NCBI GenBank assembly: GCA_027923965.1
Contig: AP026969.1
Coordinates: 5,022,001 to 5,086,000, forward strand
Length of the DNA stretch: 64,000 bases
Reading direction: 5' to 3'
From: Comamonadaceae bacterium OS-1
Lineage (GTDB): Bacteria > Pseudomonadota > Gammaproteobacteria > Burkholderiales > Burkholderiaceae_C
The first letter of the stretch is position 1. The number at the start of each line of letters is the position of its first letter. Shown piece by piece: positions 6,426-63,673 of the stretch. The notes beneath the pieces were generated by a model that had not been told where the DNA came from, searched no databases, and saw only the letters and a list, made by a program, of their open reading frames with translations. Position numbers and translations under genes: made by a program.

Positions 6426-6440
6426 AAAAATCCTTCGGGG

Positions 6441-6578: not shown

Positions 6579-6593
6579 AAGTGGCTTTCAGGT

Positions 6594-7283: not shown

Positions 7284-7292
7284 GGGGTTCTT

Positions 7293-8750
7293 TCAAGCGT
7301 GGGCCAGTGAAGAAGAAGGCACGGGCACCAGCACCGAGCGGCCACGGGTGGCCGTCATCCACACGTTCCAGGCCATCACCAGCATGCCGCTGAGGTACAG
7401 CAGGCCGCCCACCACACGCACCACGTAGAACGGGTAGGTGGCCTTGACGCTTTCCACAAAGGTGTAGGTCAGGGTGCCGTCGGTGTTGACCGCGCCCCAC
7501 ATCAGGCCCTGCATCACACCGGCAATCCACATGGCGGCGATGTAGAGCACGATGCCCACGGTGGCCAGCCAGAAGTGCAGTTCGATGGCGGGCACGCTGT
7601 GCATCTTCTTGCCGCCAAACATGCGCGGAATCAGGTGGTAGAGCGAACCCATGGACACCAGACCCACCCAGCCCAGGGCACCGGAGTGCACGTGGCCCAC
7701 GGTCCAGTCGGTGTAGTGGCTCAGCGCGTTGACGGTCTTGATGGCCATCATCGGGCCTTCAAAAGTGCTCATGCCGTAGAAGGACAGCGAGACGATCAGG
7801 AAACGCAGGATCGGGTCGTCGCGCAGTTTGTGCCAGGCACCCGAGAGCGTCATCACGCCGTTGATCATGCCGCCCCAGCTGGGGGCCAGCAGAATCAGCG
7901 AGAACACCATGCCCAGGGACTGCGTCCAGTCGGGCAGGGCGGTGTAGTGCAGGTGGTGGGGACCGGCCCACATGTAGGTGAAGATCAGCGCCCAGAAGTG
8001 CACGATGGACAGGCGGTACGAGTACACCGGCCGCTCGGCCTGCTTGGGGATGAAGTAGTACATCATGCCCAGGAAGCCAGCAGTCAGGAAGAAGCCCACC
8101 GCATTGTGGCCATACCACCACTGCACCATGGCATCTTGCACCCCGGCGTAGGCCGAGTACGACTTCATCCAGCCCGCAGGCACTTCGGCGCTATTGACCA
8201 CGTGCAGCAAGGCCACGGCGATGATGAAGGCCCCGAAGAACCAGTTCGCCACGTAGATGTGCTTGACACGGCGGCGGCCCACGGTACCGAAGAACACGAT
8301 GGCATAGGACACCCACACCAGCGTGATCAGGATGTCGATGGGCCATTCGAGTTCAGCGTATTCCTTGCCGGTGGTGTAGCCCATGGGCAGGGAGATGGCC
8401 GCGGCCACGATCACCGCCTGCCAGCCCCAGAAGACGAAGGACGCCAGTGGCGGGCAGAACAGCCGGACCTGGCAGGTGCGTTGCACCACAAAGAAGCTGG
8501 TGGCCATCAGCGCGCAGCCGCCGAACGCAAAAATCACCGCGTTGGTGTGCAGGGGCCGCAGGCGACCGTAGCTGAGCCAGGAAATGCCGAAGTTCAACTC
8601 CGGCCAGGCCAGTTGGGAGGCAATGATCACCCCCACCAGCATCCCCACCACCCCCCAGACCACGGCCATCAGGGAAAATTGTCGTACGACTGTGTCGCTA
8701 TAGACCTCGTTGATCCCGGGTGGGTCGGTCTGTGTATTCGTATAAGCCAT
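7293..8750 (-). CDS. ccoN: Cytochrome cbb3 oxidase catalytic subunit I
   Basis: This 485-residue haem-copper oxidase subunit reduces oxygen to water at haem b3-CuB and pumps protons at very low oxygen. It shows about twelve hydrophobic helices and the CcoN motifs [11 protein letters not shown] and AGPHHLHYT, which hold the CuB histidines and the cross-linked Tyr. The start at 8750 is supported by AAAGAGG seven bases upstream; the frame's more distal start (8810) lacks such support and adds a non-homologous leader. An FNR-type box (8802-8815) lies about 58 bp upstream, overlapping the end of ccoS. Confidence 0.97.
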
Positions 8751-8801
8751 GGGCACCTCTTTGTGTTCATGGCAGTGTCGAAGCGATGGCCGCACCGCAC
8801 C

Positions 8802-8815
8802 TTGATGCAAGTCAA
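8802..8815. promoter_or_regulatory. FNR box upstream of ccoN
   Basis: TTGAT-GCAA-GTCAA differs from TTGAT-N4-ATCAA at one position. It lies 52 to 65 bp upstream of the ccoN start and overlaps the ccoS stop codon, so the ccoNOQP operon can be activated separately from ccoIS. Confidence 0.7.
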
Positions 8816-8949
8816 TCGTTGTGCAGAATGCGCTCGCCTTCTTGCTCGACCGACTCGAACTGGCCTTGAAAAATGGCCCACCACAGCCCGCCCAGGATCA
8901 GCAGCACCAGCACAACGGACAGGGGGATGAGGAGGTACAGGATGTCCAT
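8812..8949 (-). CDS. ccoS: Cytochrome cbb3 maturation protein CcoS
   Basis: A 45-residue single-pass membrane protein from an ATG at 8949 to a TGA at 8812. The N-terminal helix covers about residues 4-26 and contains [14 protein letters not shown], with an acidic tail typical of CcoS. In other bacteria CcoS is needed to insert haem and copper cofactors into the oxidase. It lies between ccoI and ccoN, the usual pairing. Confidence 0.88.
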
Positions 8950-8974
8950 CAACAGGCCTTCTGGTAAATGCTAC

Positions 8975-9020
8975 ATATTTTGTAGCTCGTCACGCTGAGG
9001 GAATAAGCACGGGAGGCTGT
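8975..9020 (+). repeat. Dispersed intergenic palindromic repeat, copy 1
   Basis: This stretch between ccoI and ccoS reads TGTAGCTCGTCACGCTGAGG then GAATAAGCACGGGAGGC. It matches the family pattern TAGCTGCTTGCGCTTAT / ATAAGCGC / GGAGGC seen eight more times in this window. The stem is degenerate in this copy. Confidence 0.6.
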
Positions 9021-9033
9021 TTTCATATAAATC

Positions 9034-11280: not shown

Positions 11281-11314
11281 GCGCCAAGCCTATCGGTGTA
11301 GGACAGCGCCCCGT

Positions 11315-11328
11315 TTGACAAAGATCAA
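11315..11328. promoter_or_regulatory. FNR box between ccoI and uspA
   Basis: TTGAC-AAAG-ATCAA matches the FNR consensus at nine of ten positions. For the plus-strand gene a TAATCT candidate -10 at 11351-11356 would place the start of transcription near 11363, putting this site at about -41.5, the classical activating position. Confidence 0.8.
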
Positions 11329-11382
11329 CGCCAAAGCCAATAAACAGGACTAATCTGGGGGCATCAACTCCTGGAGATCAGT

Positions 11383-11826
11383 ATGTACACCAGCATTCTT
11401 GTGGCCACCAACGGGGACGAACTGTCCCACAAAGCCGTGGTCAGTGGTATCGACCTGGCCGCTCTCACAGGGGCGGCCTTGTTCATCGTCAAGGTGGTGC
11501 CCCACTATGCCCGCACTTACTACGAGGGCTCCATTCCGGTCAGCATGGACGACTCGGCCCGCATCGAGCAGCAATGGATAGACGACGGTCAGCGCGTGGT
11601 CGATGCCTACAAGGGCGAGGCGCAGGCCAAGGGCGTGAACGTCCAGACCGTGGTGGTGCAGTCGGACCAGGTGGCCGAAGGCATCATCAACGCCGCCACC
11701 AAGTACCACGCCGACCTGATTGTGATGGCCTCGCATGGCCGTAAAGCCATCAAGCGCCTGCTGCTGGGCAGCGAAACCCAGCACGTGCTGACGCACTCGC
11801 ACACGCCAGTGCTGATTTTGCGCTGA
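11383..11826 (+). CDS. Universal stress protein (UspA family)
   Basis: A 147-residue single-domain Usp protein. It has the N-terminal ILVATNGDELS strand-loop, DLIVMASHGRKAIKRLLLGS and a C-terminal HTPVLILR strand, i.e. the nucleotide-binding core with a G-X9-10-GS pattern. The second glycine of the usual G-2X-G motif is replaced by Ala (HGRKA), so ATP binding is not assured. CTGGAG precedes the start. It diverges from ccoI over an FNR box, which fits an FNR-activated stress protein for oxygen limitation. Confidence 0.9.
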   Translation: MYTSILVATNGDELSHKAVVSGIDLAALTGAALFIVKVVPHYARTYYEGSIPVSMDDSARIEQQWIDDGQRVVDAYKGEAQAKGVNVQTVVVQSDQVAEGIINAATKYHADLIVMASHGRKAIKRLLLGSETQHVLTHSHTPVLILR

Positions 11827-11849
11827 GCTTTGTAGGTTGCAAGCGCGAT

Positions 11850-11898
11850 AGCCCGCCCGCGCTTATCCCATAAGCGTGGGCAGTTATTTTTTTGATAG
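11850..11898 (-). repeat. Dispersed intergenic palindromic repeat, copy 2, doubling as uspA terminator
   Basis: CCCGCGCTTAT - CCC - ATAAGCGTGGG (11856-11880) forms an 11-bp stem with one G-T pair, followed by a T-rich run. The element is in reverse orientation relative to copy 1 and could end uspA transcription. Confidence 0.7.
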
Positions 11899-11997
11899 CG
11901 AAAAAGCAAGGGGCTATGGTCATACGTCACACAAAATGACGCTCCAACCCGCCATAATTTCAACCGGCATGTCGCCACGTGGTAGCGGGAGAAAACG

Positions 11998-12390
11998 ATG
12001 GATTGGTTTGTCGAAGCCCTGAAGAAATACGCTGTCTTTTCGGGACGTGCGCAACGCAGCGAGTACTGGTATTTCTTTCTGTTCTACGTGCTGATTTCGG
12101 TGGTGCTGGGCATCGCCGATGGGCTGGCGGGCTCGTACAACCGGCATGCGGGCATGGGCATGCTGGGGGGCATTTTCAGCATCGGCATGCTGCTGCCGTC
12201 GCTGGGGGTGTCGGTTCGGCGACTGCATGACATCGACCGCAGCGGCTGGTGGCTGCTGATCGCGTTCATTCCGGTCGTCGGCGCCATCGTACTGCTGGTG
12301 TTTTGCGTGCGCGATAGCCAGCCCGGCAGCAACCGCTTTGGACCCAACCCCAAGGATGCCCTGCCGGGAGATCGGTTTTCGCTGACCTGA
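11998..12390 (+). CDS. DUF805 membrane protein
   Basis: A 130-residue integral membrane protein with about four hydrophobic segments. It has the DUF805 signatures FSGRAQRSEYWYFFLF near the N-terminus, SVRRLHDIDRSGWW in the middle, and a C-terminal GSNRFGPNP. The biochemical function of the family is unknown. It stands alone between uspA and the NRDE gene, with only 16 bp to the latter, so the two may be co-transcribed. Confidence 0.85.
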   Translation: MDWFVEALKKYAVFSGRAQRSEYWYFFLFYVLISVVLGIADGLAGSYNRHAGMGMLGGIFSIGMLLPSLGVSVRRLHDIDRSGWWLLIAFIPVVGAIVLLVFCVRDSQPGSNRFGPNPKDALPGDRFSLT

Positions 12391-12406
12391 AGCGCACAGC
12401 CCTCCC

Positions 12407-13198
12407 ATGTGTCTTCTCGCCTTCCAATGGCAACCCGATGCCCCCGCGCCGTTGACCATTGCCGCCAACCGCGATGAGTTTTATGCCCGGCCCACCACCG
12501 CGCTGCATGCCTGGGCCGACGGCCACACGGTCGCAGGCCAGGATTTGCAAGAGGGCGGCACCTGGATGGGGGTGCACCGCCCCAGCGGTCGGCTGGCGGC
12601 GCTGACCAATGTGCGCGACCCGGCGGCCATGCGGGCAGATGCGCCCTCGCGTGGCGGCATCGTCACCGCGTTTTTGCACAGTGGCCTGGGTGCCGCAGAC
12701 TTTGCGCAGCAGTTGGCCGCAAGCTCGGATGCCTACAACGGCTTCAACCTGCTGCTGTTCGACGGCCAGCAGCTGGTGGCGTTCGAGAGCCGCCAAAAAC
12801 GGCATTTCCAGCCCGCACCCGGCGTGTGGGCGGTGTCGAATGCCGACTTCAACACCCCCTGGCCCAAGCTGGTGCGGCTGCGCATCGGCCTGGCCCGCGC
12901 GCTGGAAACACACCACGCCGCGCAGTCACCCACCATCGCCCCGGCGCTGGAGGCCGCGCTGTGGCCGCTGCTGGCCGACACCCGTAGGGCCCTTGACACC
13001 GAGCTGCCCGCCACCGGGGTCGGCCTGGAGCTGGAACGCACCTTGTCTGCCGCCTTCATCTGCACGCCGCACTACGGCACCCGGGCCAGCACGCTGGTCC
13101 ACCATGGACGCAACCAGGTGCACATCATCGAACGCAGCTTTGGCGCGGGCGGGGTGCTGGAGCCTACGGGCACCGTGCGTTTGACGGTGGATATTTAG
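12407..13198 (+). CDS. NRDE-family (TANGO2-like) protein
   Basis: A 263-residue cytosolic protein with the family signature: an N-terminal MCLL (Cys2 conserved), AANRDEFYARPT near residue 20, a GGTWMG motif, and LTNVRDP. NRDE proteins resemble eukaryotic TANGO2; their enzymatic role is not settled. Length is normal and the gene looks intact. It is followed by a copy of the dispersed repeat and a convergent MBL-fold gene. Confidence 0.88.
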   Translation: MCLLAFQWQPDAPAPLTIAANRDEFYARPTTALHAWADGHTVAGQDLQEGGTWMGVHRPSGRLAALTNVRDPAAMRADAPSRGGIVTAFLHSGLGAADFAQQLAASSDAYNGFNLLLFDGQQLVAFESRQKRHFQPAPGVWAVSNADFNTPWPKLVRLRIGLARALETHHAAQSPTIAPALEAALWPLLADTRRALDTELPATGVGLELERTLSAAFICTPHYGTRASTLVHHGRNQVHIIERSFGAGGVLEPTGTVRLTVDI

Positions 13199-49183: not shown

Positions 49184-49385
49184 GTTTGGATGGTGGCAGT
49201 CGTTAACGGGATGTTATGGCGGTGGGCGCGGCTTGGCGCTGGTACCCTGTGTGTAAATGTATCGGATTTATGGGGGGATGCACCAGAAGAAGAGGCCCAA
49301 AACAATCGCTAATCGGGCTTTGCAATCGCCAAGTCGTCGCTATCCTTGTTCACCAGACACTCCCTGCACCCCAGGCAGCAAGACC

Positions 49386-52300
49386 ATGATCGACGCAAGT
49401 ACCGAGACATCCAGCCCCCAGCCCACGGACACCAGCGCAGTCGATAGCTTGCTGGCGCAGGCCATCGATGCCCACCAGGCGCTGGACTTTGTGGGTGCGG
49501 AAGCGGCCTACCGTACCGTGCTGGAGCATGAGCCTGAACATGCCGATGCGAGTCACAACCTGGGGGTGTTGCTGGCGGTGCAGTTGCTGCGGCCCCAGGA
49601 GGCCTTGCCTTATTTTGAGGCGGCGCTGAATGCCGATGCCGAGCGGCCCCAGTTTTGGTTCAGTTATATCGACTGCCTGGTGCGCTGCGAGCATTTTGAT
49701 CTGGCCCGCCAGGTCTTGCCGTTGGCCCAGGGCTTGTCCGTGGGCATGGTCAATGCATTGACCGAGCGGATGCCCCGGGTGGCCGATACATCCACGCACA
49801 TTGCAATCCCCGAACCGGAGCAAGAACCTAACCAGACGGAAAAGCAGGCCCTGGTGAGCCTCTTTCAGCAAAAAAAATACGAGCAAGGCGAAGCGCACGC
49901 CCGCAAGCTGGTGCAGCGCTACCCCGAAAGCGGTTTCGCCTGGAAAGCTCTGGGCACCATGCTACAGCCGCAAGGAAAGAAAGAGGAGGCCCTGGAAGCC
50001 AAGAAACGGGCGGTGCAATTGCTGCCTGACGATGCCGAGGGCCTGTGCAACCTGGGGCGCTCGTATTTTGAGTTGGGCCTGACGCTGCAGGCCATTGAGG
50101 CCCTGCGGATCTGCGTGGCCACCAAGCCAGACTATGCCGAGGCCTTGAATAATTTAGGGTTGGCATTGAATGCCAATGGCCAGGTGGATGAAGCGCGCCA
50201 ATGTTTTGAGCGTGCGATAAAGATCCAGCCCCAATTTGCGGAAGCACTCAACAACCTCAGCGGTTTGTTTACGTTGAATGGGCAGATTGACGAGGCGATT
50301 GCCGTCTTGCGAAAAGCCGTTGCAGCCAAGAGCGACTACAAAATTGCTTTTGATAATTTGCTATTCGTGGTGAATTACCACCCCGAATACAGTGCCGAGG
50401 AGATATTCAAGAGCTACTGTGAATACGAACGGCGCTTTGGTGCGCCAGCACGTGCAGACTGGGCCCCTCACCACAACCTGCGCAGCACCCAACGGCGCTT
50501 GAAGGTGGGCTACGTGTCCCCCGACTTCAGGGGCCATGCTTGCACCTATTTCATGGAGCCCTTATTGGCCCGGCACGACCGGCAGGTGGTAGAGCTCTAC
50601 GCCTATGCAGAGTTGACGCATGAAGATGCCGTCACCCAGCGGTACAAGCAGTATGTTGAGCACTGGGTGCCTACCCGGGGCATGAGCGACGTGGCCCTGG
50701 CGCAGCGTATCCGAGCCGATGGCATCGACATCCTGGTCGATCTGGCGGGGCACACTGCGGGCAACCGCCTGGGCGCATTTGCCCGCAAACCCGCGCCTGT
50801 GTCGGTGAGCTGGATGGGGTTTGGCTACACCACCGGTCTGCGGGCCATCGACTACTACCTGACCGATGCCATCTGCACCCCGGCGGGCAGCGAACACCTG
50901 TTCTCGGAAGAGCCTTGGCGCCTGGACGGCACCTGCTTTACGGCGTACCGCCCCGGTCCCGGCATGGGCGAGGTCAACGCCTTGCCTGCTGTGGAGCGCG
51001 GTTACATCACGCTGGGCACTTTGACCCGGGGCGTGCGCATCAACCACCACAGCCTGCGTGTGTGGGCCACTATCTTGCAGCGGCTACCCACAGCCCACCT
51101 GGTAATTGACAGCCGATCGTTCCAAGACACCACGGTGCAGGCCGACGCGGTGCAGAAGTTTGCCGCCCACGGCATCGCTGCCGAGCGCCTGCACATCGGC
51201 TTCAACAGCCCGCCGTGGGACGTGCTGCGTGGCATCGACATAGGGCTGGACTGCTTTCCGCACAACAGCGGCACCACCTTGTTTGAAACCCTGTACATGG
51301 GTATCCCGTATGTCACCTTGGCGGGCCGCCCCAGCGTGGGCCGCATTGGCAGCAGCATCCTGCACAGCCTGGGCCACCCGGAGTGGATCGCCCACAGCGA
51401 AGGCGAATACATTGAGAAAGTCGTCGCCCTGGCCAGCGATTTGCCCGCCCTGGCGCAGCACCGCGCCAGCCTGCGCGCCGAAATGCACGCCAGTGTGCTG
51501 ATGGACGAGCGCGGCTTTACCCGCAAGGTCGAGCAGGCCTATGCCCAGATGTTTGCCCGCTGGGCCAGTACGGCCCCGAAACTGGTACAAAAAACGGCCT
51601 CCATGACGCGTCGCAGCGAGCCCAGTGCCGATGAGATGAAGCTGGTGGCTTCGTTTTTTCAATCCCGTGATTTTGCGGCGGGTGAAGTGGCTGCCCGCGA
51701 GCTGGTGCGCCTGTACCCGGAGCACGGCTTTGGCTGGAAGGCTTTGGGCACCATGCTGCACCCTTTGGGTCGTGCCGAGGAAGCCTTGCATGCCAAAAAA
51801 CAAGCCGCGCAACTCATGCCGCAAGATGCCGAGGCGGCGTGTAACTTGGGCCAGTCCTTGCAAGATATCGGCCAGTACGCATTGGCTGAAACAGTTTTAA
51901 AGCGGGCACTGGCACTCAAGCCCGACTATGCCGAAGCCTACAACAACCTGGCCATCACCTACCAAAAAATGGGCCGTGTCCCAGAATCAGAGGCCAACTT
52001 CCAAGCGGCTTTGGCCCTCAACCCCAATAGCATCTGGATTTTTGACAACCTGCTGTTCACACTGAACTACCACCCCGACCACAGTGCCGAGCAGATATTC
52101 AAGAGCTACTGCGAATACGAGCGCCGATTTGGCGACCCCTACCGGAGCGACTGGAAGCCGCACGCCAACGAGCGTACGCCGGGGCGGCGTTTGAAAGTGG
52201 GTTACGTGTCGCCAGACTTTCGCAGCCACGCGTGCAGCTACTTTCTGGAGCCCTTGCTGGCCGGGCATGACCCGGCGCTGGTTGAGGTCACCGCCTATGC

Positions 52301-55300
52301 CGACCTGAGCATAGAGGATGCGGCGAGCCAGCGCTACAAGGGCTACGTGTCCCATTGGGTGCCCACCCGGGCCATGAGCGACGCGGCTCTTGCGCAGCGC
52401 ATCCGCGCCGATGGCATCGACATTCTGGTTGATCTCGCAGGCCACAGCACGGGCAACCGCCTGGGCGCATTTGCCCGCAAACCCGCGCCGGTGTCGATGA
52501 GCTGGATGGGTTATGGCTACACCACCGGCCTGCGGGCCATCGACTACTACCTGACCGATGCCATCTGCACCCCGGCGGGCAGCGAACACCTGTTCTCGGA
52601 AGAGCCTTGGCGCCTGGACGGCACCTGCTTTACGGCGTACCGCCCCGGTCCCGGCATGGGCGAGGTCAACGCCTTGCCTGCTGTGGAGCGCGGTTACATC
52701 ACGCTGGGCACTTTGACCCGGGGCGTGCGCATCAACCACCACAGCCTGCGTGTGTGGGCCACTATCTTGCAGCGGCTACCCACAGCCCACCTGGTAATTG
52801 ACAGCCGATCGTTCCAAGACACCACGGTGCAGGCCGACGCGGTGCAGAAGTTTGCCGCCCACGGCATCGCTGCCGAGCGCCTGCACATCGGCTTCAACAG
52901 CCCGCCGTGGGACGTGCTGCGTGGCATCGACATAGGGCTGGACTGCTTTCCGCACAACAGCGGCACCACCTTGTTTGAAACCCTGTACATGGGTATCCCG
53001 TATGTCACCTTGGCGGGCCGCCCCAGCGTGGGCCGCATTGGCAGCAGCATCCTGCACAGCCTGGGCCACCCGGAGTGGATCGCCCACAGCGAAGGCGAAT
53101 ACATTGAGAAAGTCGTCGCCCTGGCCAGCGATTTGCCCGCCCTGGCGCAGCACCGCGCCAGCCTGCGCGCCGAAATGCACGCCAGTGTGCTGATGGACGA
53201 GCGCGGCTTTACCCGCAAGGTCGAGCAGGCCTATGCCCAGATGTTTGCCCGCTGGGCCCGCCAGACCGCTGTCGATGCGGTAGAAGCTGCGCCTGCTGTG
53301 GGCGAGATGAATGCCTTGGTACGTTTGTTCCAGGACCAGGCGTTTGCCCAGGGCGAGGCGGCGGCGCAGGCCCTGGTGGCGCGCTACCCCCGCCATGGCT
53401 ACAGCTGGAAGCTGCTGGGTTCGTTTTTGCAAAAGCAGGGCCATGTGGAGGCCGCTTTGCAGGCCAAGCAACGTGCCGTGCAATTGCTGCCCGACGACAC
53501 CGAGGCCTTGTTCAACCTGGCGCTGGCCTATGAGCAGCAGGGCCTGATGGCCCAGGCCGAGCCCTGTTACCGCGCCGTTATTGCCCAGCACCCGGACGAT
53601 GCCGACGCCCACCACAATCTGGGCAACACCCTGGTCGGGCAGGGAAAGCAAGTGCAGGCTATTCCCTGCTACCGCGAAGCCCTGCGCTTGCAGCCGCAGC
53701 TGGAGAGTGGCTACGACAGCCTCGGCGGTCTCTTGCAGGACGCGGGCTTCCTGGTGGAGGCCGAGTCGGTGTGGCGCAGGTTTTTGCAGGTCAAGCCCGG
53801 CCACATGCCGGCCGTCATCCAGCTGGGGCGAAATTTGCAACGGCAAGGCCGCCGTGCCGAGGCGGAAGCCTGCATGCGCAGTGCGGTGGACGTGAAGGAA
53901 GACGACCTTGCGGACTACTTCACCCGCGCCAACCTGCTGGGCGAGCTGGGCCTGTACGCCGATGCCGAGGCCGATTTCCGCCGGGCGCTGGAAATCAACC
54001 CCAAAGCCCCCGAAATTTGGTGCAATTTGGCCGCCAATCTCAAAGAACAAGGGCGGCTGACCGAGGCCGAAGCCTGCGCGCTACGGGCCTTGGACATCCA
54101 ACCTGAATTGGTGGTTGCCGTGACCAACCACGCAGTGATCTTGATGACCCAGGGGCGGTTGGTGGAGGCGGAGGCTGGTTTCCGGCAGGCTTTGGAGCTG
54201 ATGCCGGACAACCAGGGCATTTTCTCCAACATGCTGTTTGCGCTGAACTACGACGCAGACAAAAGCGCCGAAGAGATCTTCGAGGCGTACCGCGAATTTG
54301 ACCGCCGGTTTTGCAGCATCCACCGTGACACCTGGGCCCCCCATACCAACGCCCCTGCGGCCGGGCGGCGGCTCAAGGTGGGCTATGTGTCACCAGACTT
54401 CAAAAACCACTCCTGCATCTTCTTTATGGAGCCCCTGCTGTCGCAGCACGATGCGCAAGTGGTCGAGCTGTACGCTTATGCCGACCTCACCCAGGAAGAC
54501 CACGCCACCAAGCGCTACAAGGAATATTTTGAGCACTGGGTGCCCATCCGTGGCGTGTCCGACGCGGCCTTGGCGCAGCGCATCCGGGCCGACGGTATTG
54601 ATATTTTGGTGGACATGGCGGGCCACACCTCGGGCAACCGCTTGTGCCTGTTTGCCCGCAAACCTGCCCCGGTGTCCATGAGCTGGATGGGTTATGGCTA
54701 CACCACCGGCCTGCAAGCCATCGACTACTACCTGACAGATGCCATCAGCGCGCCAAAGGGCAGCGAACACCTGTTTGCGGAAACCCCCTGGCCCCTGCCC
54801 GATACCTGTTTTACCGCGTACCGTCCCGGCACGTCGATGGGCGAGGTGAACGCCTTACCCGCACTCCAGCGGGGCTATGTGACGCTGGGCACGCTCACGC
54901 GGGGCGTGCGCATCAACTACCGCACCATCCGCGTGTGGGTGCAAATTTTGCGGCGCTTGCCCACGGCGCGCATCGTGATCGACAGCAGTTCCTTCAAAGA
55001 CCACGACGTGGCGCAGGCCCTGCTGCAGCAATTTACGGCCCAAGGCATTGCGCAGGACCGGGTGTACGTAGGCTACAACAGCCCACCGTGGGACGTACTA
55101 CGCGGCATCGACATCGGGCTGGACTGCTTTCCACACAACTCAGGCACCACGCTGGTGGAGACCTTGTATATGGGCATTCCCTATGCCACCTTGGCGGGCC
55201 GCCCCAGCGTGGGCCGCATCGGAAGCTCCATCTTGCACGGCGTAGGCCACCCGGAGTGGATTGCCCAGACCGAAGATGAATACGTCGAGATCGTGGTCGC

Positions 55301-55454
55301 CCTGGCCAATGACCTGCCCGCCCTGGCCGCGCACCGCGCCCATCTGCGGGGCGAAATGCAAGCCAGCACGCTGATGGACGAGCCCGGCTTTGCCCGCAAG
55401 GTCGAGGCCGCCTACGCACAGATGTTCCAACGCTGGGAGGAGTCGCAAAAATGA
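49386..55454 (+). CDS. Three-headed TPR/GT41 (SPINDLY-type) glycosyltransferase
   Basis: A protein of about 2,022 residues with three successive modules, each made of TPRs followed by a GT41 (O-GlcNAc-transferase-like) catalytic region. An N-terminal TPR cap (1-150) comes first. TPR blocks begin near residues 156, 753 and 1311. Each catalytic region opens with [12 protein letters not shown] (370, 934, 1661) and later has DILVD-AGH, SWMG-GYTTGL and [17 protein letters not shown]. Known GT41 enzymes O-glycosylate Ser/Thr of proteins, including bacterial flagellins. Modules 1 and 2 share 729 bp of identical DNA. The start at 49386 is chosen because upstream residues are Arg/Pro-rich and non-TPR; ATGs at 49257 and 49278 remain possible. 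It overlaps rfbF by 4 bp. A role in flagellin glycosylation is inferred from the neighbourhood. Confidence 0.85.
50838..51566 (+). repeat. 729-bp identical direct repeat, copy A
   Basis: This stretch of catalytic domain 1 is base-for-base identical to 52530-53258, 1,692 bp downstream and in frame. It starts just after CACCGGT and ends at CGCTGGGCC. The surrounding modules are only similar, so identity here points to recent gene conversion or duplication. Confidence 0.95.
52530..53258 (+). repeat. 729-bp identical direct repeat, copy B
   Basis: Second copy, inside catalytic domain 2; see 50838-51566. It could support recombination that removes or adds one 564-residue module. Confidence 0.95.
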
Positions 55455-56221
55455 AAGCCGTGATTTTGGCCGGGGGTCTGGGCACCCGCATTTCCGAGGA
55501 AACCCACCTCAAACCCAAACCGATGATCGAGATCGGTGGCAAGCCCATCCTGTGGCACATCCTCAAGATGTATTCTGCCCACGGCGTGAACGACTTTGTG
55601 ATCTGCTGCGGCTACAAGGGCTACATCATCAAGGAATACTTCGCCAACTACTTCCTGCACATGTCCGACGTCACCTTCGACATGGCCAACAACCGCATGG
55701 AAGTGCACCACAAGCATGCCGAGCCCTGGAAGGTGACGCTGGTGGACACCGGCGACGACTCCATGACCGGTGGCCGCCTCAAGCGTGTGGCCGACTACCT
55801 GCGGGGCGAAGAAGCCTTCTGCTTCACCTACGGGGATGGCGTGTCGGATGTGGATATCAGCGCGTCCATCGCCTTCCACCGCCAGCACGGCAAGCTGGCC
55901 ACCGTCACCGCGGTACAGCCCCCGGGCCGCTATGGCGCGCTGAACATGCGGGGCGATGTGGTGCAAGGCTTTACCGAAAAGCCGCGGGGCGATGGTGGCC
56001 TGATCAACGGCGGTTTTTTCGTGCTTTCGCCCCAGGTACTGGGCCGCATTGCGAACGACGCCACCAGCTGGGAGCAAGAGCCTCTGACAGGCCTGGCCGC
56101 CGAGGGTCAGCTCATGGCTTTTGAACACACCGGCTTCTGGCAACCGATGGACACGCTGCGTGAGAAAAACCTGCTCGAAGAGCTGTGGCTGTCGGGCAAA
56201 GCCCCCTGGAAAACCTGGTGA
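55451..56221 (+). CDS. rfbF: Glucose-1-phosphate cytidylyltransferase
   Basis: A 256-residue nucleotidyltransferase making CDP-glucose from glucose-1-phosphate and CTP. It shows the N-terminal [20 protein letters not shown], with the basic and Glu residues of RfbF, and [20 protein letters not shown] as in CDP-glucose synthases. [12 protein letters not shown] marks the metal site. Length equals that of Salmonella RfbF. ATGA overlap with the GT41 gene and TGATG overlap with rfbG indicate one operon. Confidence 0.93.
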
Positions 56222-57270
56222 TGTGGTCTGACACCCCGGTTTTCCTCACCGGCCACACCGGCTTCAAAGGCGGCTGGCTGGCCCTGTGGCTGCACGCGCT
56301 GGGGGCCAAGGTCCACGGCTACGCGCTGGACCCGAACACCACGCCCAGCCTGTTCGACGTGGCCCGCGTAGCCGAGGTGTTGGCCAGTGACACCCGTGCT
56401 GACCTGGCCGACCGCGCCGCCCTGCAAGCCGCTCTGGCTGCCGCCCAGCCCACCGTTGTCTTCCATCTGGCCGCCCAGCCCTTGGTGCGCGCCAGCTATG
56501 CCGACCCGCTGGGCACCTTTGCTACCAACGTCATGGGTACCGCCCACCTGCTGGAAGCCGTGCGCGCGGTCCCCAGCGTGCGCGCCGTGGTGGTGGTGAC
56601 GACAGACAAGGTCTACGACAACCGCGAATGGGTCTACCCCTACCGCGAAAGCGATGCGCTCGGCGGGCACGACCCCTACAGCGCCAGCAAGGGTGCGGCA
56701 GAAATCGTGGCCGCCAGCTACCGCGCCAGTTTCTTCCACACCCCAGGCGCGGCGCAGATCGCCACCGCCCGGGCGGGCAATGTCATCGGCGGCGGCGACT
56801 GGGCTGCCGACCGCCTGGTGCCGGATTGCCTGAAAGCCTTTGCCGAGCAGCAGCCCGTGCAGCTGCGCTTTCCCGGTGCGGTACGGCCCTGGCAGCATGT
56901 GCTGGAGCCGCTGTCGGGCTATGTGCGACTGGCCCAGGCCCTGCTGGACGGCCCTGCGGCCGCCAGTGCCTGGAACTTCGGCCCCGATGCCCGCGGCGAC
57001 GCTACCGTGGGCCAGGTCGCCCAGCGGCTGGCTGCGCTGTGGGGGCAGGGCGCACGCGTTGAAATCCCCGAGGGTGGCAGCCACCCGCACGAGGCCGGCC
57101 AGTTGCGCCTGGACATCACCCGCGCCCGCGCCGAACTGGGCTGGCAACCGCGCTGGAGCCTGGAGGAAGCCCTGGCCCACACCGTGGCCTGGCATCGCGC
57201 CTGGCGGGCCGGGGACGACATGGCGGTGGCCTGCCGAGACCAGATATCTGCATTTGGGGATAATTTGTGA
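56221..57270 (+). CDS. rfbG: CDP-glucose 4,6-dehydratase
   Basis: A 349-residue short-chain dehydrogenase giving CDP-4-keto-6-deoxyglucose. The NAD-binding GHTGFKGGW lies near residues 11-19, the catalytic YSASK near 155 and TTDKVYDN before it. Motifs such as HLAAQPLVRASYADP and RAGNVIGGGDWA are characteristic of RfbG. The ATG at 56221 shares a base with the rfbF stop; a longer frame start at 56185 would run into rfbF. Confidence 0.93.
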   Translation: MWSDTPVFLTGHTGFKGGWLALWLHALGAKVHGYALDPNTTPSLFDVARVAEVLASDTRADLADRAALQAALAAAQPTVVFHLAAQPLVRASYADPLGTFATNVMGTAHLLEAVRAVPSVRAVVVVTTDKVYDNREWVYPYRESDALGGHDPYSASKGAAEIVAASYRASFFHTPGAAQIATARAGNVIGGGDWAADRLVPDCLKAFAEQQPVQLRFPGAVRPWQHVLEPLSGYVRLAQALLDGPAAASAWNFGPDARGDATVGQVAQRLAALWGQGARVEIPEGGSHPHEAGQLRLDITRARAELGWQPRWSLEEALAHTVAWHRAWRAGDDMAVACRDQISAFGDNL

Positions 57271-57271: not shown

Positions 57272-57325
57272 TGCTATATTATTAGTAGCTGCTCGTGCTA
57301 TTGCCATAAGCGCTGGAGGCCATTT
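57272..57325 (+). repeat. Dispersed intergenic palindromic repeat, copy 8, carrying a ribosome site
   Basis: TAGTAGCTGCTCGTGCTATT then GCCATAAGCGCTGGAGGCC. The GGAGG at 57315-57319 is the family's terminal GGAGGC and sits 8 bases before the ATG of the epimerase gene. The repeat thus supplies the Shine-Dalgarno sequence inside the operon. Confidence 0.75.
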
Positions 57326-57327
57326 TG

Positions 57328-57909
57328 ATGCTTGAAATTGCCACGCCGCGTTTTCGTTTTCAGCCCACACCCCTGGCCGGGTTGTGGCTGTCGCAGCGCC
57401 AGCCCATCCGCGACGCGCGGGGCTTCTTTGCCCGCTTCTACTGCGCGCAAGAGTTTTCCGCCATCGGCGTGGTGCAGCCCTTGGCGCAGATCAACCAGTC
57501 GTTCTCCCAGCAGCCCGGCACGCTGCGCGGCCTGCATTTTCAGCATCCTCCGCACGCCGAAACCAAGGTGGTCAGCTGCCTGAGTGGCCGCATTTTTGAT
57601 GTGGCGGTGGACGTGCGCAGCGGTTCCCCCACCTTTTTGCAGTGGTTTGGCGTGGAGCTGTCGGCCCAGGCGCAAAACAGCCTGGTGATCCCCCCCGGTT
57701 TCGCCCACGGCTTCCAGACGCTGGAGCCTGACAGCGAAATCCTCTACCTCGTCACCACCGCCTACAGCGCGCAATACGAGGACGGCCTGCACCCGCTCGA
57801 CCCGGCGCTGGCCATCGACTGGCCCCTGCCGGTGGCCGAAATCTCGGCCCGCGATGCCCAGCGCCCGTTGCTGGATGTTGCCACCTACGCGGGTATCCCC
57901 CATGTCTGA
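57328..57909 (+). CDS. RfbC-like nucleotide-sugar 3,5-epimerase
   Basis: A 193-residue cupin-fold protein of the dTDP-4-dehydrorhamnose 3,5-epimerase family. It shows RDARGFFARFY, INQSFSQQPGTLRGLHFQ (catalytic His region), LSGRIFDVAVDVRSGSPTF and VIPPGFAHGFQTL. In this operon it more likely acts on the CDP-4-keto-6-deoxy sugar made by RfbFG, since no rmlA, rmlB or rmlD gene is present; that is inference. GGAGG lies 8 bp before the ATG at 57328. The 3' end overlaps the next gene by 8 bp. Confidence 0.85.
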   Translation: MLEIATPRFRFQPTPLAGLWLSQRQPIRDARGFFARFYCAQEFSAIGVVQPLAQINQSFSQQPGTLRGLHFQHPPHAETKVVSCLSGRIFDVAVDVRSGSPTFLQWFGVELSAQAQNSLVIPPGFAHGFQTLEPDSEILYLVTTAYSAQYEDGLHPLDPALAIDWPLPVAEISARDAQRPLLDVATYAGIPHV

Positions 57910-58741
57910 TGCCACCCCCATCACCGTGCTGGGCGCGGGTGGCTTTATTGGCCAGCACCTGGTGGCGCACCTGCAGCGCGCGGGTCACGCCTGCTATGCC
58001 CCGGTGCGCGGGGACCCGGCGGTGTTCACCCGGCCGTTGGGGCACGTGGTCTACGCTATCGGCCTGACGGCGGACTTTCGCAGCCGCCCGCTGGACACGG
58101 TGGAGGCGCATGTGTGCTTTTTGCGGCAGCTCATACAACAGGCCAGCTTCACGTCGCTCACCTACCTGTCGAGCACCCGCGTCTACGCCGGGGCCACCGA
58201 TACCCGTGAATCGGCCCGGCTGCAGGTCAATCCCAACGACGCCAGCGACCTGTACAACCTGTCCAAGCTGATGGGCGAGTCGCTGTGCCTGCACGGCGGC
58301 CATGCGGGCATGAAGGTGGCCCGCCTGTCCAACATCGTCGGGCTGCGGCCCGACCCCGACATCTTTATCGACCAGCTGCTGGCCGAGGGCTGCCGCACCG
58401 GCCATGTGCACCTGCACACCGCGTTGGCATCCTGCAAAGACTACCTGTCCATTGGCGACGCGGTGGAGCTGTTGACCCGCATCGCCCTCAGCCCCGACAC
58501 CGGCATCTTCAACGTAGCCAGCGGCGAGGGCGTGGCCAACCAGCAGGTGGTTGACGCCCTTCAACGCCACATGGGTTTTGCCGTGACGGTGGCCCCGGAT
58601 GCCCCGGTATGGGACTTTCAGCCCATCGACACCCGCAAAACCCAGGCCCGTTTTGGCCTGGCCCCCCAGCTATTTGCCGATCATTTTCCCCATTTCCTCC
58701 AGCAATACCGACAACACAGGAGTCTGCATGCCCTACCTTGA
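57902..58741 (+). CDS. NAD-dependent epimerase/dehydratase (SDR)
   Basis: A 279-residue extended short-chain dehydrogenase. The cofactor motif GAGGFIGQHL is near residue 10, the Ser/Thr region TYLSSTRVYAG near 98 and the catalytic Tyr-Lys YNLSK near 120. The family contains 4-ketoreductases and epimerases of nucleotide sugars. Following an epimerase, a role as the 4-reductase that finishes a CDP-6-deoxyhexose is plausible but not proven. It overlaps both neighbours (8 and 14 bp). Confidence 0.85.
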   Translation: MSDATPITVLGAGGFIGQHLVAHLQRAGHACYAPVRGDPAVFTRPLGHVVYAIGLTADFRSRPLDTVEAHVCFLRQLIQQASFTSLTYLSSTRVYAGATDTRESARLQVNPNDASDLYNLSKLMGESLCLHGGHAGMKVARLSNIVGLRPDPDIFIDQLLAEGCRTGHVHLHTALASCKDYLSIGDAVELLTRIALSPDTGIFNVASGEGVANQQVVDALQRHMGFAVTVAPDAPVWDFQPIDTRKTQARFGLAPQLFADHFPHFLQQYRQHRSLHALP

Positions 58742-59483
58742 AACCACCCCTTCGGCCCACCCTGATTACCAGCTGGAAAAGCAGCAGCGCATTGCCGCCT
58801 TTGCCGACGATGCCGAGTTTCGGGCGCTGTCCAACCAGTGGCGCGCCATGGCCCTGGAGCGCAAGTACATGAACAACTTCTCCTGGCTGGGTCGCCCGCT
58901 GATCCAGCTGCCGATGGACGCGATGGCGCTGCAAGAGATCATCTGGGCCGTGAAGCCCGACCTCATCATTGAAACCGGCGTGGCCCACGGTGGGTCGGTG
59001 GTGCTGTCGGCCTCGATGCTGGAATTGCTGGGCCACGGCGAGGTGGTGGGTATCGACATCGACATCCGCCCGCACAACCGCCAGGCCATTGCCGCCCACC
59101 CCATGGCCCACCGCATTTCGCTGATCGAAGGCTCCAGCGTCGCCCCCGAGGTGGTGGCCCAGGTCAAGGCGCTGGCGGCGGGCAAAAAGAAGGTGCTGGT
59201 GTGCCTGGACTCCAACCACACCCACGAGCACGTGCTGGCCGAGCTGAATGCCTATGCCGATCTGGTCAGCGTGGGCAGCTACTGCATCGTGTTCGATACG
59301 TTTGTGGAAGACATGCCCGACGACTACGTGTGGACCGACCGCCCCTGGGGCAAAGGCAACAACCCCAAGACGGCCGTGTGGGAGTGGATAAAGCAAAACC
59401 CCGGCTTTGTGATCGACAAGTCGGTGGAAGACCGTTTGCTGGTCACCTCGGCGCCCGACGGGTTTTTGCAACGCATCGCATAA
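58728..59483 (+). CDS. CmcI-type (cephalosporin hydroxylase family) methyltransferase-like protein
   Basis: A 251-residue protein of the CmcI/RMNT family. It has a Rossmann-type core with LIIETGVAHGGSVVLSASML (SAM motif I, about residues 81-100), VVGIDIDIRPHN and YCIVFDTFVEDMPDD. Family members are found in sugar and antibiotic modification loci and are usually SAM-dependent methyltransferases despite the hydroxylase name. It probably methylates the locus sugar. The start at 58728 is supported by AGGAG. Confidence 0.82.
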   Translation: MPYLETTPSAHPDYQLEKQQRIAAFADDAEFRALSNQWRAMALERKYMNNFSWLGRPLIQLPMDAMALQEIIWAVKPDLIIETGVAHGGSVVLSASMLELLGHGEVVGIDIDIRPHNRQAIAAHPMAHRISLIEGSSVAPEVVAQVKALAAGKKKVLVCLDSNHTHEHVLAELNAYADLVSVGSYCIVFDTFVEDMPDDYVWTDRPWGKGNNPKTAVWEWIKQNPGFVIDKSVEDRLLVTSAPDGFLQRIA

Positions 59484-59492: not shown

Positions 59493-60239
59493 ATGAACTT
59501 TCTCTCCAGCGTGTTTTTTGGCATCCAGGCCGAGGGTTTTGTGCAGGGCGTGCAAAAGACCATCGACAGCATCCCGCACAAAGACGGCATCTTTACCGGC
59601 GACAACCTCATCACCTTTGGCCGCAACCTGGGTTTCTTCCAGGACGAAAAGTTCATGGCGGCGTGGCGCGGCAATGTGGAGACCCCGGTCGAAGAGGCCA
59701 TCGTCTGGCGCCTGGCCGTGCTGGCCTGGGCCGCCAAAAGCGTGATCGCCCGCAAGATACCGGGCGACTTTGTGGAATGCGCCTGCTACAAGGGCATTAC
59801 CGCCCGCATCTTGTGCGAGTACACCGACTTTGCCCAGCGGCCCGACCGCAGCTACTACCTCTACGACCTGTTCGAGCACGATGCCAGCATGCTGCACCAC
59901 TCCATGGCCGAGCACAGCACCACCCTGTTTGACAAGGTCACGGCGCGCTTTGCCGACCACCCCAATGTGCAGGTGGTGCAGGGCAGCATCCCCGAGGTGC
60001 TGCACCAGGTCAGCCCGCAAAAAGTGGCCTTCCTGCACATCGACCTGAACAACGCCCCGGCGGAAATCGGCGCGCTGGAGGTTTTGTTCGACCGCCTATC
60101 GCCTGGGGGCATTTTGGTGCTGGACGACTACGGCTGGCTGGCCTACCGGGCCCAAAAGCTGGCCGAAGACCCCTGGCTGGCCGAGCGCGGCTACCAGGTG
60201 CTGGAGCTGCCCACCGGGCAGGGGCTGGTGTTCAAGTGA
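59493..60239 (+). CDS. TylF/MycF-like O-methyltransferase
   Basis: A 248-residue SAM-dependent methyltransferase related to macrocin O-methyltransferases (TylF/MycF), which methylate sugar hydroxyls. It shows IPGDFVECACYKGITARILC (motif I), YLYDLFEHDAS, FLHIDLNNAPAEIGALEVLF and GILVLDDYGW, with the paired acidic residues for Mg2+. It lies 9 bp after the CmcI-like gene, and its stop overlaps the GTG start of the acyltransferase. Confidence 0.85.
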   Translation: MNFLSSVFFGIQAEGFVQGVQKTIDSIPHKDGIFTGDNLITFGRNLGFFQDEKFMAAWRGNVETPVEEAIVWRLAVLAWAAKSVIARKIPGDFVECACYKGITARILCEYTDFAQRPDRSYYLYDLFEHDASMLHHSMAEHSTTLFDKVTARFADHPNVQVVQGSIPEVLHQVSPQKVAFLHIDLNNAPAEIGALEVLFDRLSPGGILVLDDYGWLAYRAQKLAEDPWLAERGYQVLELPTGQGLVFK

Positions 60240-60724
60240 TCACCATCCACCCCCAGGCCCAGGTATCGCACCTGGCCGACATCGAAGACTCGGTGCGCGG
60301 CACCCGCATCGACATCGGTGCCCACACCGTGGTGGACAGCTTCGTCAAATTCAAGCCTGCAGGCGGCAGTGGCGACGTGGTGGTGGGTGAGTGGTGCGTC
60401 ATCAACAGCGGTTGCGTGCTCTACACCGGCAATGGCATCCACATTGGCAACCAGGTGGCGATTGCCGCCAACTGCACCTTTGCCCCGGTCAACCACGCCT
60501 ACCAGGACCGCCACCGCCCCATCCGCGAACAAGGCTTCATGCCCAGCAAAGGCGGCATCGTGGTGGAAGACGATGTCTGGATCGGTGCCAACGTCGTGCT
60601 GCTGGACGGCTGCATCCTGCGCCGCGGCTGCGTAGTGGCGGCGGGCTCCATCGTGCGCGGCGAGGTGGCGGCCTACTCCGTGGTGGCCGGACAGCCGCTG
60701 CGGGTGGTGGGCATGCGGCAGTAG
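60236..60724 (+). CDS. Hexapeptide-repeat acyltransferase
   Basis: A 162-residue left-handed beta-helix acyltransferase with successive [LIV]-G-X4 repeats (IDIGAHTVV, IHIGNQVAIAANCTF, VWIGANVVLLDGCIL). It has APVNHAYQD, with the catalytic-type His, and the SIVRGEVAAYSVVAGQPLRV end typical of this family. It likely transfers an acetyl group to the sugar. The start is a GTG overlapping the previous stop (GTGA); no ATG lies nearby. It is the last gene of the locus. Confidence 0.88.
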   Translation: MITIHPQAQVSHLADIEDSVRGTRIDIGAHTVVDSFVKFKPAGGSGDVVVGEWCVINSGCVLYTGNGIHIGNQVAIAANCTFAPVNHAYQDRHRPIREQGFMPSKGGIVVEDDVWIGANVVLLDGCILRRGCVVAAGSIVRGEVAAYSVVAGQPLRVVGMRQ

Positions 60725-60864: not shown

Positions 60865-62094
60865 TTACTGCTGCAGTAGCGACAACACGCCCTGTGGCAG
60901 CTTGTTGGCCTGGGCCACCATGGCCGTACCGGCCTGCTGCAGAATTTGCGTGCGTGACAGGTTGGCCGTTTCTTGCGCAAAGTCGGCATCCACAATCCGG
61001 CCCTTGGCGGCGGCCAGGTTTTCTATCTGGATGCTGATGTTGCTCACAGCGCTTTCAAAGCGGCTTTGCAGCGCACCCAGGTTGGCGCGGGCCGAATTCA
61101 CCTGGTCGATGGCCGCGTCGATCTTCTTCAGGGCCACCCAGGCGTTGCGCTGGGTGTCCACCGTCAGGGTGTCGATGCCCAGGGCATCGGACGTGGTGTT
61201 GACCGCATTGATCGTGGAGCCCATTGCCGCAATCGAGCCCAAGCCGGTCGTTGCGGTGGAAAAGCCCGTGAGCGCGACCACGGCGGCGTCGCCGTTGGAG
61301 TCCAGCTTGGCCGACATCAGGTCGATGCGGTACGTTTGGTCCAGATTTTGTGACAAGAAGGCGGTCACGCCGGTGTCGGTGGATTTGCGGTTAAGCGCCT
61401 CTACCACCTGGCCCATGCGTTCAGAGCCCGAGCTGGCCGCCGCCAGAGGGCCCAGGTCGAAGGAAAACGTGCCGGCCCCGGTGACAGATATCGACAAAGT
61501 CCCCGCGCTCAACGCGGTCAGTGAATTCACCGACGAGGCCGCCACCTGGCTGGCCGACTGGTCATAGCCGTAGGCAATGTCGGCCAAGCCGATGGCGGTG
61601 GAGTTGGTCAGTGCACCCAGCGATGCCACGTCGCCCGAGTTAGCCCCTACCTGGAACACCGCCCCGGCAAACGAGCCGTCCAGTATCTTTCTGCCGTTGA
61701 ACGAGGTCTGCTTGGCGACCCGGTCGATTTCATCGGTCAGCTGGCCTACCTCGGCCTGCAAGGCCTTGCGGTCAGCGGCGCTGTTGGTGGCGTTGCTGGC
61801 CTGTACGGCCAGTTCCCGCATGCGCTGCAACATGTCACCCACCTTGCCCAACGCGCCTTCAGCCGTTTGCGCCAGCGAAATGCCGTCGTTGGCATTGCGG
61901 GCCCCTACCGAGAGGCCGCGCAGCTGGGTCGTCATGCGTTCCGCGATGGCCAGGCCAGCCGCGTCGTCCTTGGCGCTGTTGACGCGTAAACCAGAGGACA
62001 GGCGTTGCATGGAAGTGGCCAGCCCCATCGCACTGGTTGCCAGATTGCGCTGGGCGTTAAGAGAATTGACGTTGGTATTGATCGTGGCAGCCAT
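60865..62094 (-). CDS. fliC: Flagellin 1
   Basis: A 409-residue filament subunit. The conserved N-terminal D0/D1 (INTNVNSLNAQRNL, SSGLRVNSAKDDAAGLAIAE) and C-terminal D1/D0 (VDADFAQETANLSRTQILQQ, ending VLSLLQQ) flank a Ser/Thr/Ala-rich centre (about residues 180-290), the likely surface and glycan-bearing part. AAGGAGC precedes the start. It diverges from a second flagellin that is almost the same at both ends but differs in the middle. Confidence 0.96.
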   Translation of the reverse strand: MAATINTNVNSLNAQRNLATSAMGLATSMQRLSSGLRVNSAKDDAAGLAIAERMTTQLRGLSVGARNANDGISLAQTAEGALGKVGDMLQRMRELAVQASNATNSAADRKALQAEVGQLTDEIDRVAKQTSFNGRKILDGSFAGAVFQVGANSGDVASLGALTNSTAIGLADIAYGYDQSASQVAASSVNSLTALSAGTLSISVTGAGTFSFDLGPLAAASSGSERMGQVVEALNRKSTDTGVTAFLSQNLDQTYRIDLMSAKLDSNGDAAVVALTGFSTATTGLGSIAAMGSTINAVNTTSDALGIDTLTVDTQRNAWVALKKIDAAIDQVNSARANLGALQSRFESAVSNISIQIENLAAAKGRIVDADFAQETANLSRTQILQQAGTAMVAQANKLPQGVLSLLQQ

Positions 62095-62249: not shown

Positions 62250-62276
62250 TAAAGTTTTGGCGCGGACACCCGAAAA
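62250..62276 (+). promoter_or_regulatory. Sigma-28 promoter for flagellin 2
   Basis: TAAAGTTT, 11 bp, CCCGAAAA: the -35 is a perfect match to the FliA consensus and the -10 matches six of eight positions of GCCGATAA. It lies 60 bp before the flagellin ATG. Confidence 0.75.
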
Positions 62277-62335: not shown

Positions 62336-63562
62336 ATGACCACCACTATCAATACCAACGTCAATTCGCTGAATGCGCAGCGCAACCTCATGGCTTCGGG
62401 CGGCTCGCTCGCCACCTCCATGCAACGCCTGTCTTCCGGCCTGCGCGTCAACAGCGCCAAGGACGACGCGGCTGGCCTGGCCATTGCCGAGCGCTTCCAG
62501 AGCCAGATCAAGGGCTTGAGCGTCGGTTCGCGCAACGCCAACGACGGCATTTCGCTGGCGCAAACGGCTGAAGGTGCGTTGGGCAAGGTGGGCGACATGC
62601 TGCAACGTATGCGTGAACTGGCCGTGCAGTCCAGCAACGCCACCAACAGCGCTGCCGACCGCAAGGCCTTGCAGTCGGAAGTGAGCCAGCTCACCGACGA
62701 AGTGGACCGTATCGCCAAGCAAACCTCGTTCAACGGCAAAAAAGTGCTGGACGGCTCGTTTGCCGGTGCAGTGTTCCAAGTGGGTGCGAATTCTGGCGAA
62801 AACATTACCGTGGGCGGCCTGACCAACTCCACAGCCACTGGGCTGTCCAAGAGTGCCTACTCCTACGACCAATCGAACAGCTCGATCACGGCCTCTTCGG
62901 TCAACTCGCTGACCGCCCTTTCCGCCGGTAGCCTGACGATTGCTGTAACCGGTGCCGGGCAAGTCACCATCAAACTGGACGCGATTGCAGCAGCCTCGTC
63001 TGGCTCTGAGCGTATGGGCCAAGTGGTGGAGGCGATCAACCGTAAAACTGCTGATACGGGTGTAACGGCCTTCTTGTCGCAAAACGCGGACCAGAGCTAC
63101 CGCATCGACATCATGAATGAGAACCTGGATACGAATGGCGATTCTGCCGTGGTCAGTTTTACGGGCTTCACCGCGACCACTACCGGTCTGGTCTTGGCGG
63201 GCGATCTGGCTTCGAAGATCGATGCCGCCAACACCACCAGTGATGCACTGGGTATTGACACGCTGAACATTGACACCCAACGCAATGCCTGGGTGGCGAT
63301 CAAGAAGCTGGACTCGGCCATCAACCAGGTCAACTCGGCCCGTGCGCAACTGGGTGCTCTGCAAAGCCGGTTTGAAAGTGCCACTGGCAATATCGCCATC
63401 AACGTGGAAAATCTGTCCGCCTCCCGTGGCCGGATTGTGGATGCCGACTTTGCGCAAGAAACTGCCAATCTGTCGCGTACACAGATCCTGCAACAGGCCG
63501 GTACCGCCATGGTGGCCCAGGCCAACAAGCTGCCACAAAGCGTGCTGTCGCTGCTGCAATAA
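62336..63562 (+). CDS. fliC: Flagellin 2
   Basis: A 408-residue flagellin starting at MTTTINTNVNSLNAQRN with AGGAG upstream. It has the same D0/D1 ends as flagellin 1, with a Ser/Thr-rich variable centre (KSAYSYDQSNSSITASSVNS), and ends VLSLLQ, one Gln shorter. It is read divergently from flagellin 1, from its own sigma-28-type promoter, and is followed by a strong terminator and fliD. The open frame extends upstream to 62180, but that part is the promoter region. Confidence 0.96.
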   Translation: MTTTINTNVNSLNAQRNLMASGGSLATSMQRLSSGLRVNSAKDDAAGLAIAERFQSQIKGLSVGSRNANDGISLAQTAEGALGKVGDMLQRMRELAVQSSNATNSAADRKALQSEVSQLTDEVDRIAKQTSFNGKKVLDGSFAGAVFQVGANSGENITVGGLTNSTATGLSKSAYSYDQSNSSITASSVNSLTALSAGSLTIAVTGAGQVTIKLDAIAAASSGSERMGQVVEAINRKTADTGVTAFLSQNADQSYRIDIMNENLDTNGDSAVVSFTGFTATTTGLVLAGDLASKIDAANTTSDALGIDTLNIDTQRNAWVAIKKLDSAINQVNSARAQLGALQSRFESATGNIAINVENLSASRGRIVDADFAQETANLSRTQILQQAGTAMVAQANKLPQSVLSLLQ

Positions 63563-63632: not shown

Positions 63633-63673
63633 GGCGGATAAAGGAACCCCCTTTATCCGCCGTTTTGCCTTTT
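63633..63673 (+). terminator. Terminator of flagellin 2
   Basis: GGCGGATAAAG-GAACCCC-CTTTATCCGCC (63633-63661) is a perfect 11-bp stem followed by GTTTTGCCTTTT. It lies 70 bp after the flagellin stop. Confidence 0.88.

Follow-up and report, generated by a model that had tools for sequence, protein, structure and literature searches.

A three-headed TPR-GT41 glycosyltransferase gene, linked to CDP-sugar and flagellin genes, encodes a putative flagellin O-glycosyltransferase in Comamonadaceae bacterium OS-1

Family GT41 glycosyltransferases are otherwise known for using UDP and GDP sugars, and OGT-type enzymes, whose donor is UDP-GlcNAc, are usually pictured as having one head that chooses many sites. 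HMW1C/NGT enzymes of the same fold attach N-linked glucose and have no TPR array. The Caulobacter flagellin glycosyltransferase FlmG reportedly joins a flagellin-binding TPR part to a glycosyltransferase part, and it is said to have one catalytic part and to use a sugar of the nonulosonic-acid type. The Arabidopsis protein O-fucosyltransferase SPINDLY (PDB entries 7y4i and 8dtf) uses GDP-fucose as the donor, according to the title of PDB entry 8dti.

The gene described here lies in a window of 64,000 bp, the whole stretch of DNA analyzed, from a 5.12-Mb genome, probably of the genus Rhodoferax, assembled as a single contig. It is read from one uninterrupted frame (49257-55454, + strand) and encodes 2,022 amino acids. 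The start at 49386 given in a preliminary description of this DNA is the likeliest and probably correct, because the equivalent frame of the closest relative (genome G202; protein 94% identical) is open for only 12 codons before the corresponding ATG. The parts of the gene are as follows.

49386..55454 (+): three-headed TPR-GT41 glycosyltransferase, 2,022 aa (Pfam, head profile, G202 start)
49386..50390 (+): N-terminal TPR block, residues 1-335, clear TPRs at 183-318 (TPR scan)
50391..51569 (+): GT41 head 1, residues 336-728, with His384 and Arg551 (head profile)
51570..52082 (+): second TPR block, residues 729-899, clear TPRs at 781-882 (TPR scan)
52083..53261 (+): GT41 head 2, residues 900-1292, with His948 and Arg1115 (head profile)
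53262..54263 (+): third TPR block, residues 1293-1626, clear TPRs at 1338-1439 and 1508-1609 (TPR scan, model)
54264..55442 (+): GT41 head 3, residues 1627-2019, with His1675 and Arg1842 (head profile, model)

Pfam family Glyco_transf_41 (PF13844) matches the protein with 441.9 bits (cut-off, 25) in six stretches, two in each head and all above the cut-off. TPR families score up to 206 bits, and a TPR scan gave scores of 33 to 68 in 13 places, versus a maximum of 25 in 20 shuffles. Three full GT41 heads are recovered with a profile derived from the head sequences; their 10-residue core motif begins at residues 372, 936, and 1663, each within two residues of the cores previously placed at 370, 934, and 1661. 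The domain search and the head profile therefore bear out the earlier claim of three TPR-plus-GT41 modules in one protein. All six PF13844 matches in the genome at an E value of ≤0.001 fall inside this gene, and the search, which covered the GT41 family only, found no second GT41 gene at that threshold.

Downstream lie genes for a CDP-sugar pathway and for sugar tailoring, followed by two divergently oriented flagellin genes.

55451..56221 (+): rfbF, glucose-1-phosphate cytidylyltransferase (NCBIfam TIGR02623, 479 bits; cut-off, 300.25)
56185..57270 (+): rfbG, CDP-glucose 4,6-dehydratase (NCBIfam TIGR02622, 484.5 bits; cut-off, 278.45)
57325..57909 (+): RmlC-like sugar 3,5-epimerase (PF00908, 205.7 bits; rmlC, 154.3 bits, just below the cut-off of 155.75)
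57854..58741 (+): frame of the NAD-dependent epimerase/reductase family (PF01370); the start may be downstream of 57909
58599..59483 (+): frame for a sugar O-methyltransferase of the RMNT_CmcI family (PF04989, 312.8 bits); the start may be downstream
59493..60239 (+): TylF-type O-methyltransferase (PF05711)
60236..60724 (+): hexapeptide-repeat acetyltransferase (PF00132)
60865..62094 (-): flagellin 1, 409 aa, proposed substrate (Flagellin_N match at 61669-62082, -)
62336..63562 (+): flagellin 2, about 408 aa, proposed substrate (start presumed; frame open from 62180; Flagellin_N, Flagellin_C)

RfbF and RfbG pass equivalog cut-offs. The RMNT_CmcI-family frame scores 88.6 bits against rhamnosyl O-methyltransferase (cut-off, 400), and the acetyltransferase passes no NCBIfam cut-off among the 25 shown. 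The start of rfbF and the GT41 stop share 4 nt (ATGA), an arrangement found in 11 of 13 loci inspected, the window included. Promoter-like matches were not above chance for the sigma-70 type (3 found versus 2.9 expected), the sigma-28 type (2 versus 1.1), or the sigma-54 type (17 versus 22.3); one sigma-28-like site with two mismatches, from a count likewise not above chance, lies upstream of flagellin 2 (62250-62276, +). Just after flagellin 2, a strong stem-loop of 12 to 13 pairs with T-rich tails on both strands (63633-63661) is likely a two-way terminator.

The explanation that we favor over the others, and to which we give about an even chance, is a cytoplasmic multi-headed flagellin O-glycosyltransferase with three working GT41 heads on TPR scaffolds and a CDP-activated 6-deoxyhexose donor, both donor and substrate being read from genomic context. 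The TPR blocks would hold newly made, unfolded flagellin in the cytoplasm before export, the products of rfbF, rfbG, and the rmlC-like gene would make the CDP-activated 6-deoxyhexose, and each head would move this sugar from its CDP carrier onto flagellin Ser/Thr. The genes that follow would methylate or acetylate the sugar, with methylation occurring before or after transfer. The heads would address different flagellin sites; the common donor side of heads 1 and 2, combined with their unlike acceptor sides, fits one sugar and several sites. Head number (one to four) would determine the number of sites covered each time the substrate is bound. The main rivals are sequential building of a glycan chain and plain redundancy.

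Every head retains the His at the position of SPINDLY (SPY) His495 (His384, His948, and His1675), which we take to be an active-site residue of the N-lobe. The Lys at the position of SPY Lys665 and TtOGT Lys341, presumably catalytic and part of the donor site, is replaced by Arg in all three (Arg551, Arg1115, and Arg1842), and the protein is therefore classed as a GT41 member and not filed as a canonical OGT/SPINDLY enzyme. Loss of the Lys could weaken catalysis, which counts against the favored explanation. The six unbroken Rhodoferax proteins have 20 heads between them, and each of these combines the His with Arg in place of Lys; one Arg-type head elsewhere (locus L152) is without the His. 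All three heads are under constraint, with dN/dS values per head of 0.06 to 0.10 between the source genome (G000) and G202; values for the four heads of G162 versus G201 were 0.16 to 0.25. The suggestion in the preliminary description that active and inactive heads might be combined is not borne out, as the same positions are conserved in all three heads and dN/dS is similar, and one active head accompanied by inactive ones is rejected for the three-headed protein. In two other loci, L130 (genome G405, frame 8160-12635, -) and L158 (G822), the second head has neither Lys/Arg nor His at the alignment columns; judged by these residues, the second head of L130 looks degenerate, and both loci are candidate pairings of an active with an inactive head.

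An exact 729-bp repeat, absent from the preliminary description, is common to heads 1 and 2; it covers residues 485-727 of head 1 and 1049-1291 of head 2 and ends in the head's last codon.

50838..51566 (+): 729-bp tract, donor-side part of head 1, identical to 52530-53258
52530..53258 (+): 729-bp tract, donor-side part of head 2, identical to 50838-51566

We take the tract to be the donor side, by analogy with the lobes that serve donor and acceptor in other GT41 enzymes. Between heads 1 and 2, identity is 99.7% in the C-lobe and 77.3% in the N-lobe in the source genome, and 98.5% and 79.6%, respectively, in G202. Comparison of the two genomes over the tract region gave 62 sites that differ in at least one head, of which 51 changed identically in both heads, versus 2 of 55 differing sites in the N-lobe, indicating that gene conversion was active after G000 and G202 parted. 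Donor-lobe homogenization is rejected as a general rule, being absent in G203, G204, G162, and G201. An independent case is a Lys-type two-headed GT41 in L083 (G008, frame 5691-9344, -), with 99.3% identity between its two heads in the C-lobe versus 55.2% in the N-lobe; its head 1 has Arg at the His position.

These comparisons bear on the possibility that the heads work in sequence, one starting and another extending a short glycan chain at each flagellin site, which we consider unlikely. The difference of head 3 from heads 1 and 2 (72 to 74% identity), the separate lineage formed by each head position in the four-headed proteins of G162 and G201, and the presence of several sugar-tailoring genes 3' of the GT41 gene would all fit chain building. 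However, a single nucleotide-sugar pathway is recognized in the block, the donor side is identical in heads 1 and 2, and the tree of heads places all heads of the three-headed proteins in a single group (98/98), together with those read from G039 and G200 and with two single-head relatives, a grouping that does not suggest different chemistries.

Head number varies within one genomic slot. Between motA and rfbF, the GT41 gene has three heads, unbroken, in four Rhodoferax genomes (G000, G202, G203, and G204, the G203 frame likewise encoding 2,022 aa) and four heads, unbroken, in two (G162, 2,565-aa frame; G201, 2,687-aa frame), and in two other genera it has four heads (G1009, 2,608-aa frame) and two heads (G1017, 1,624-aa frame). 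G1143 and G1079 have at least two heads before the contig end. Broken genes (G039, G200, G009, G014, and G1073) are left out of these counts, those of G039 and G200 because the gene is cut at contig ends. The pieces in G1073 (L202, 1-4956) suggest several heads, and the frame breaks, with in-frame stops near two N bases and the contig end, are probably an assembly fault. Relatives of the three-headed gene are present in all eight Rhodoferax genomes; close relatives are uncommon, with 13 of 399 genomes of the family matching at an E value of ≤1e-125, six of them Rhodoferax. Single-headed Arg-type genes adjoin rfbF in four genomes of other families (G340, G442, G438, and G409), and the relatives in plasmid records (43 records) were all <60% identical. 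A divergent head type with a GRTERLN motif occurs as the second head in G1017 (L205, frame 5615-10489) and as a single head in L014 (G082).

The possibility of an assembly artifact, raised in the preliminary description, is judged unlikely, as the source genome is a single contig, G202, likewise a single contig, has the same layout despite sequence divergence, and draft genomes also contain unbroken genes with three and four heads. In the tree, G1009 head 4 clusters with the fourth heads of G162 and G201 (99/95), and G1009 head 1 clusters with their first heads (88/88), so that the four-headed layout either predates the genus split or was passed between genera. Two-headed GT41 frames of other kinds (L081, L083, L130, L134, L135, L146, and L147, among others) suggest that multi-headedness may have arisen more than once. 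The heads could instead be redundant copies produced by repeated in-frame duplication, with no division of labor and only a higher local amount of enzyme. Such redundancy would be in keeping with the variation from one to four heads and with gene conversion and expansion, which show a recombination-prone array, but it has a low probability in our estimation, given that all heads are constrained and that heads 1 and 4 retain their positional identity across G162/G201 and the genus of G1009.

The CDP-sugar genes 3' of the GT41 gene and the Lys-to-Arg change, both absent from the preliminary description, together alter the donor to be expected, and the gene context suggests a CDP-sugar donor. Among 78 GT41 frames in fetched loci (window excluded, three duplicate loci dropped, and mixed Lys/Arg frames scored as Lys-containing), 12 of 18 Arg-type frames have rfbF within 1 kb, versus 2 of 60 Lys-containing frames. 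One genus contributes six of these 12 Arg-type frames, so that the counts are not independent, and the loci were selected by score and frame length; for both reasons, the comparison is given without a probability. Among loci fetched later, five of the six with a visible 3' end have rfbF 3' of the GT41 gene (L200 and L202 to L205, but not L206). Strict pairing of Arg with CDP-sugar genes is rejected, as exceptions occur in both directions. Lys-containing frames are found near rfbF (L135 and L147 within 1 kb; L080, L094, L130, and L136 within 6 kb), and rfbF is missing within 1 kb for six of the 18 Arg-type frames (L077, L078, L098, L139, L151, where rfbF is 7.8 kb away, and L154, where the contig ends inside the gene). 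L068 and L206, Arg-type loci outside the 18-frame count, have none of the operon genes nearby. L077 (8685-11102, -) and L078 (9686-11923, +) are single-head Arg-type genes in two Rhodoferax genomes, and their fetched DNA contained no rfbF or motility gene of the window. An Arg head in L130 (890-aa frame, without the signature) and the two-headed Lys/Arg protein of L135 are both beside rfbF, which hints that the Lys-to-Arg change may have arisen more than once.

An ordinary OGT-type enzyme using UDP-GlcNAc, with the CDP-sugar genes serving another transferase, is a doubtful alternative. It draws on the GT41 fold, on the closest solved relatives being OGT (UDP-GlcNAc) and SPINDLY (GDP-fucose), and on the chance that Arg might chemically stand in for Lys. 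Against such an enzyme, 78 of 90 sampled GT41 heads have Lys (11 have Arg and one has Ala), the Arg type tends to adjoin rfbF, and the genome has no other gene of the GT41 family at the threshold given above.

Flagellin was named as the likely substrate in the preliminary description, from the position of the gene between motility genes and flagellins, and this assignment is supported by recurrence of the gene order across species and genera. The block, which runs from motA through GT41, rfbF, rfbG, the rmlC-like gene, and methyltransferases to the divergent flagellins, is found again in further Rhodoferax species and in a second genus (G1009). In G202, G162, G203, G009, and G1009, the GT41 gene is followed by rfbF genes and by two divergent flagellin genes, so that the flagellin-adjacent position is conserved across species, and flagellin-family genes are present in all eight Rhodoferax genomes. 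A flagellin occurs in the same fetched locus as 8 of 18 Arg-type frames versus 8 of 60 Lys-containing frames; the locus with the G203 pair (L074) had been dropped as a duplicate, and several loci stop short of the position where flagellin would be expected. A substrate other than flagellin, either another protein or a surface glycan, to which the single-head Arg-type loci L077, L078, and L068 without window-type flagellin or motility genes in the fetched DNA might point, is the least probable of the alternatives, since flagellins share the block across several species and genera.

More tentatively, and with somewhat less than an even chance, a branch of GT41 may have switched its donor to CDP-6-deoxyhexoses through the Lys-to-Arg change and may multiply its heads, from one to four, to tune the number of flagellin sites covered; in certain lineages, recombination would preserve the similarity of the donor lobes as the acceptor lobes and the TPRs diverge. 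The occurrence of two to four heads in one slot, alongside single-headed relatives that adjoin the same sugar genes, provides a natural series for asking whether additional heads bring more sites, an order of action, or higher speed. The Arg-type branch, with its link to CDP-sugar genes, also represents a testable donor change in GT41, and this branch could supply a new way to place methylated deoxy-sugars on proteins.

In the model of module 3 (third TPR block plus head 3; mean pLDDT, 89.4), the only module modeled well, a predicted TPR superhelix precedes a two-lobed GT-B catalytic part, and the best fold matches are SPINDLY and TtOGT, with XcOGT among the top matches. A two-head model (971 residues; pLDDT, 72.3; pTM, 0.41) is too poor for the arrangement of heads to be read. 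SPINDLY, the best match in both sequence and fold, shares the TPR superhelix, the GT41 head, and the conserved His495 position, but it is a plant protein with one head and has Lys665 where all three heads have Arg. The bacterial OGT homologues TtOGT (5djs) and XcOGT (2jlb) likewise have one head versus three, and the Met of the TtOGT K341M mutant (5djs) aligns with the Arg of the three-headed protein. HMW1C/NGT N-glucosyltransferases (3q3e and 8p0o) have the GT41 fold in common, match the C-lobe weakly, and are 13 to 15% identical to the three-headed protein in fold alignments. FlmG, as it is reported, has in common a TPR part and a glycosyltransferase part. The two-headed frames listed above, from other genera of the same order, carry two GT41 heads per frame, and three of them (L130, L135, and L147) have rfbF within 3 kb, as in the three-headed locus, L130 also with flagellins; unlike the three-headed protein, they are mostly of the Lys type and were never seen with more than two heads.
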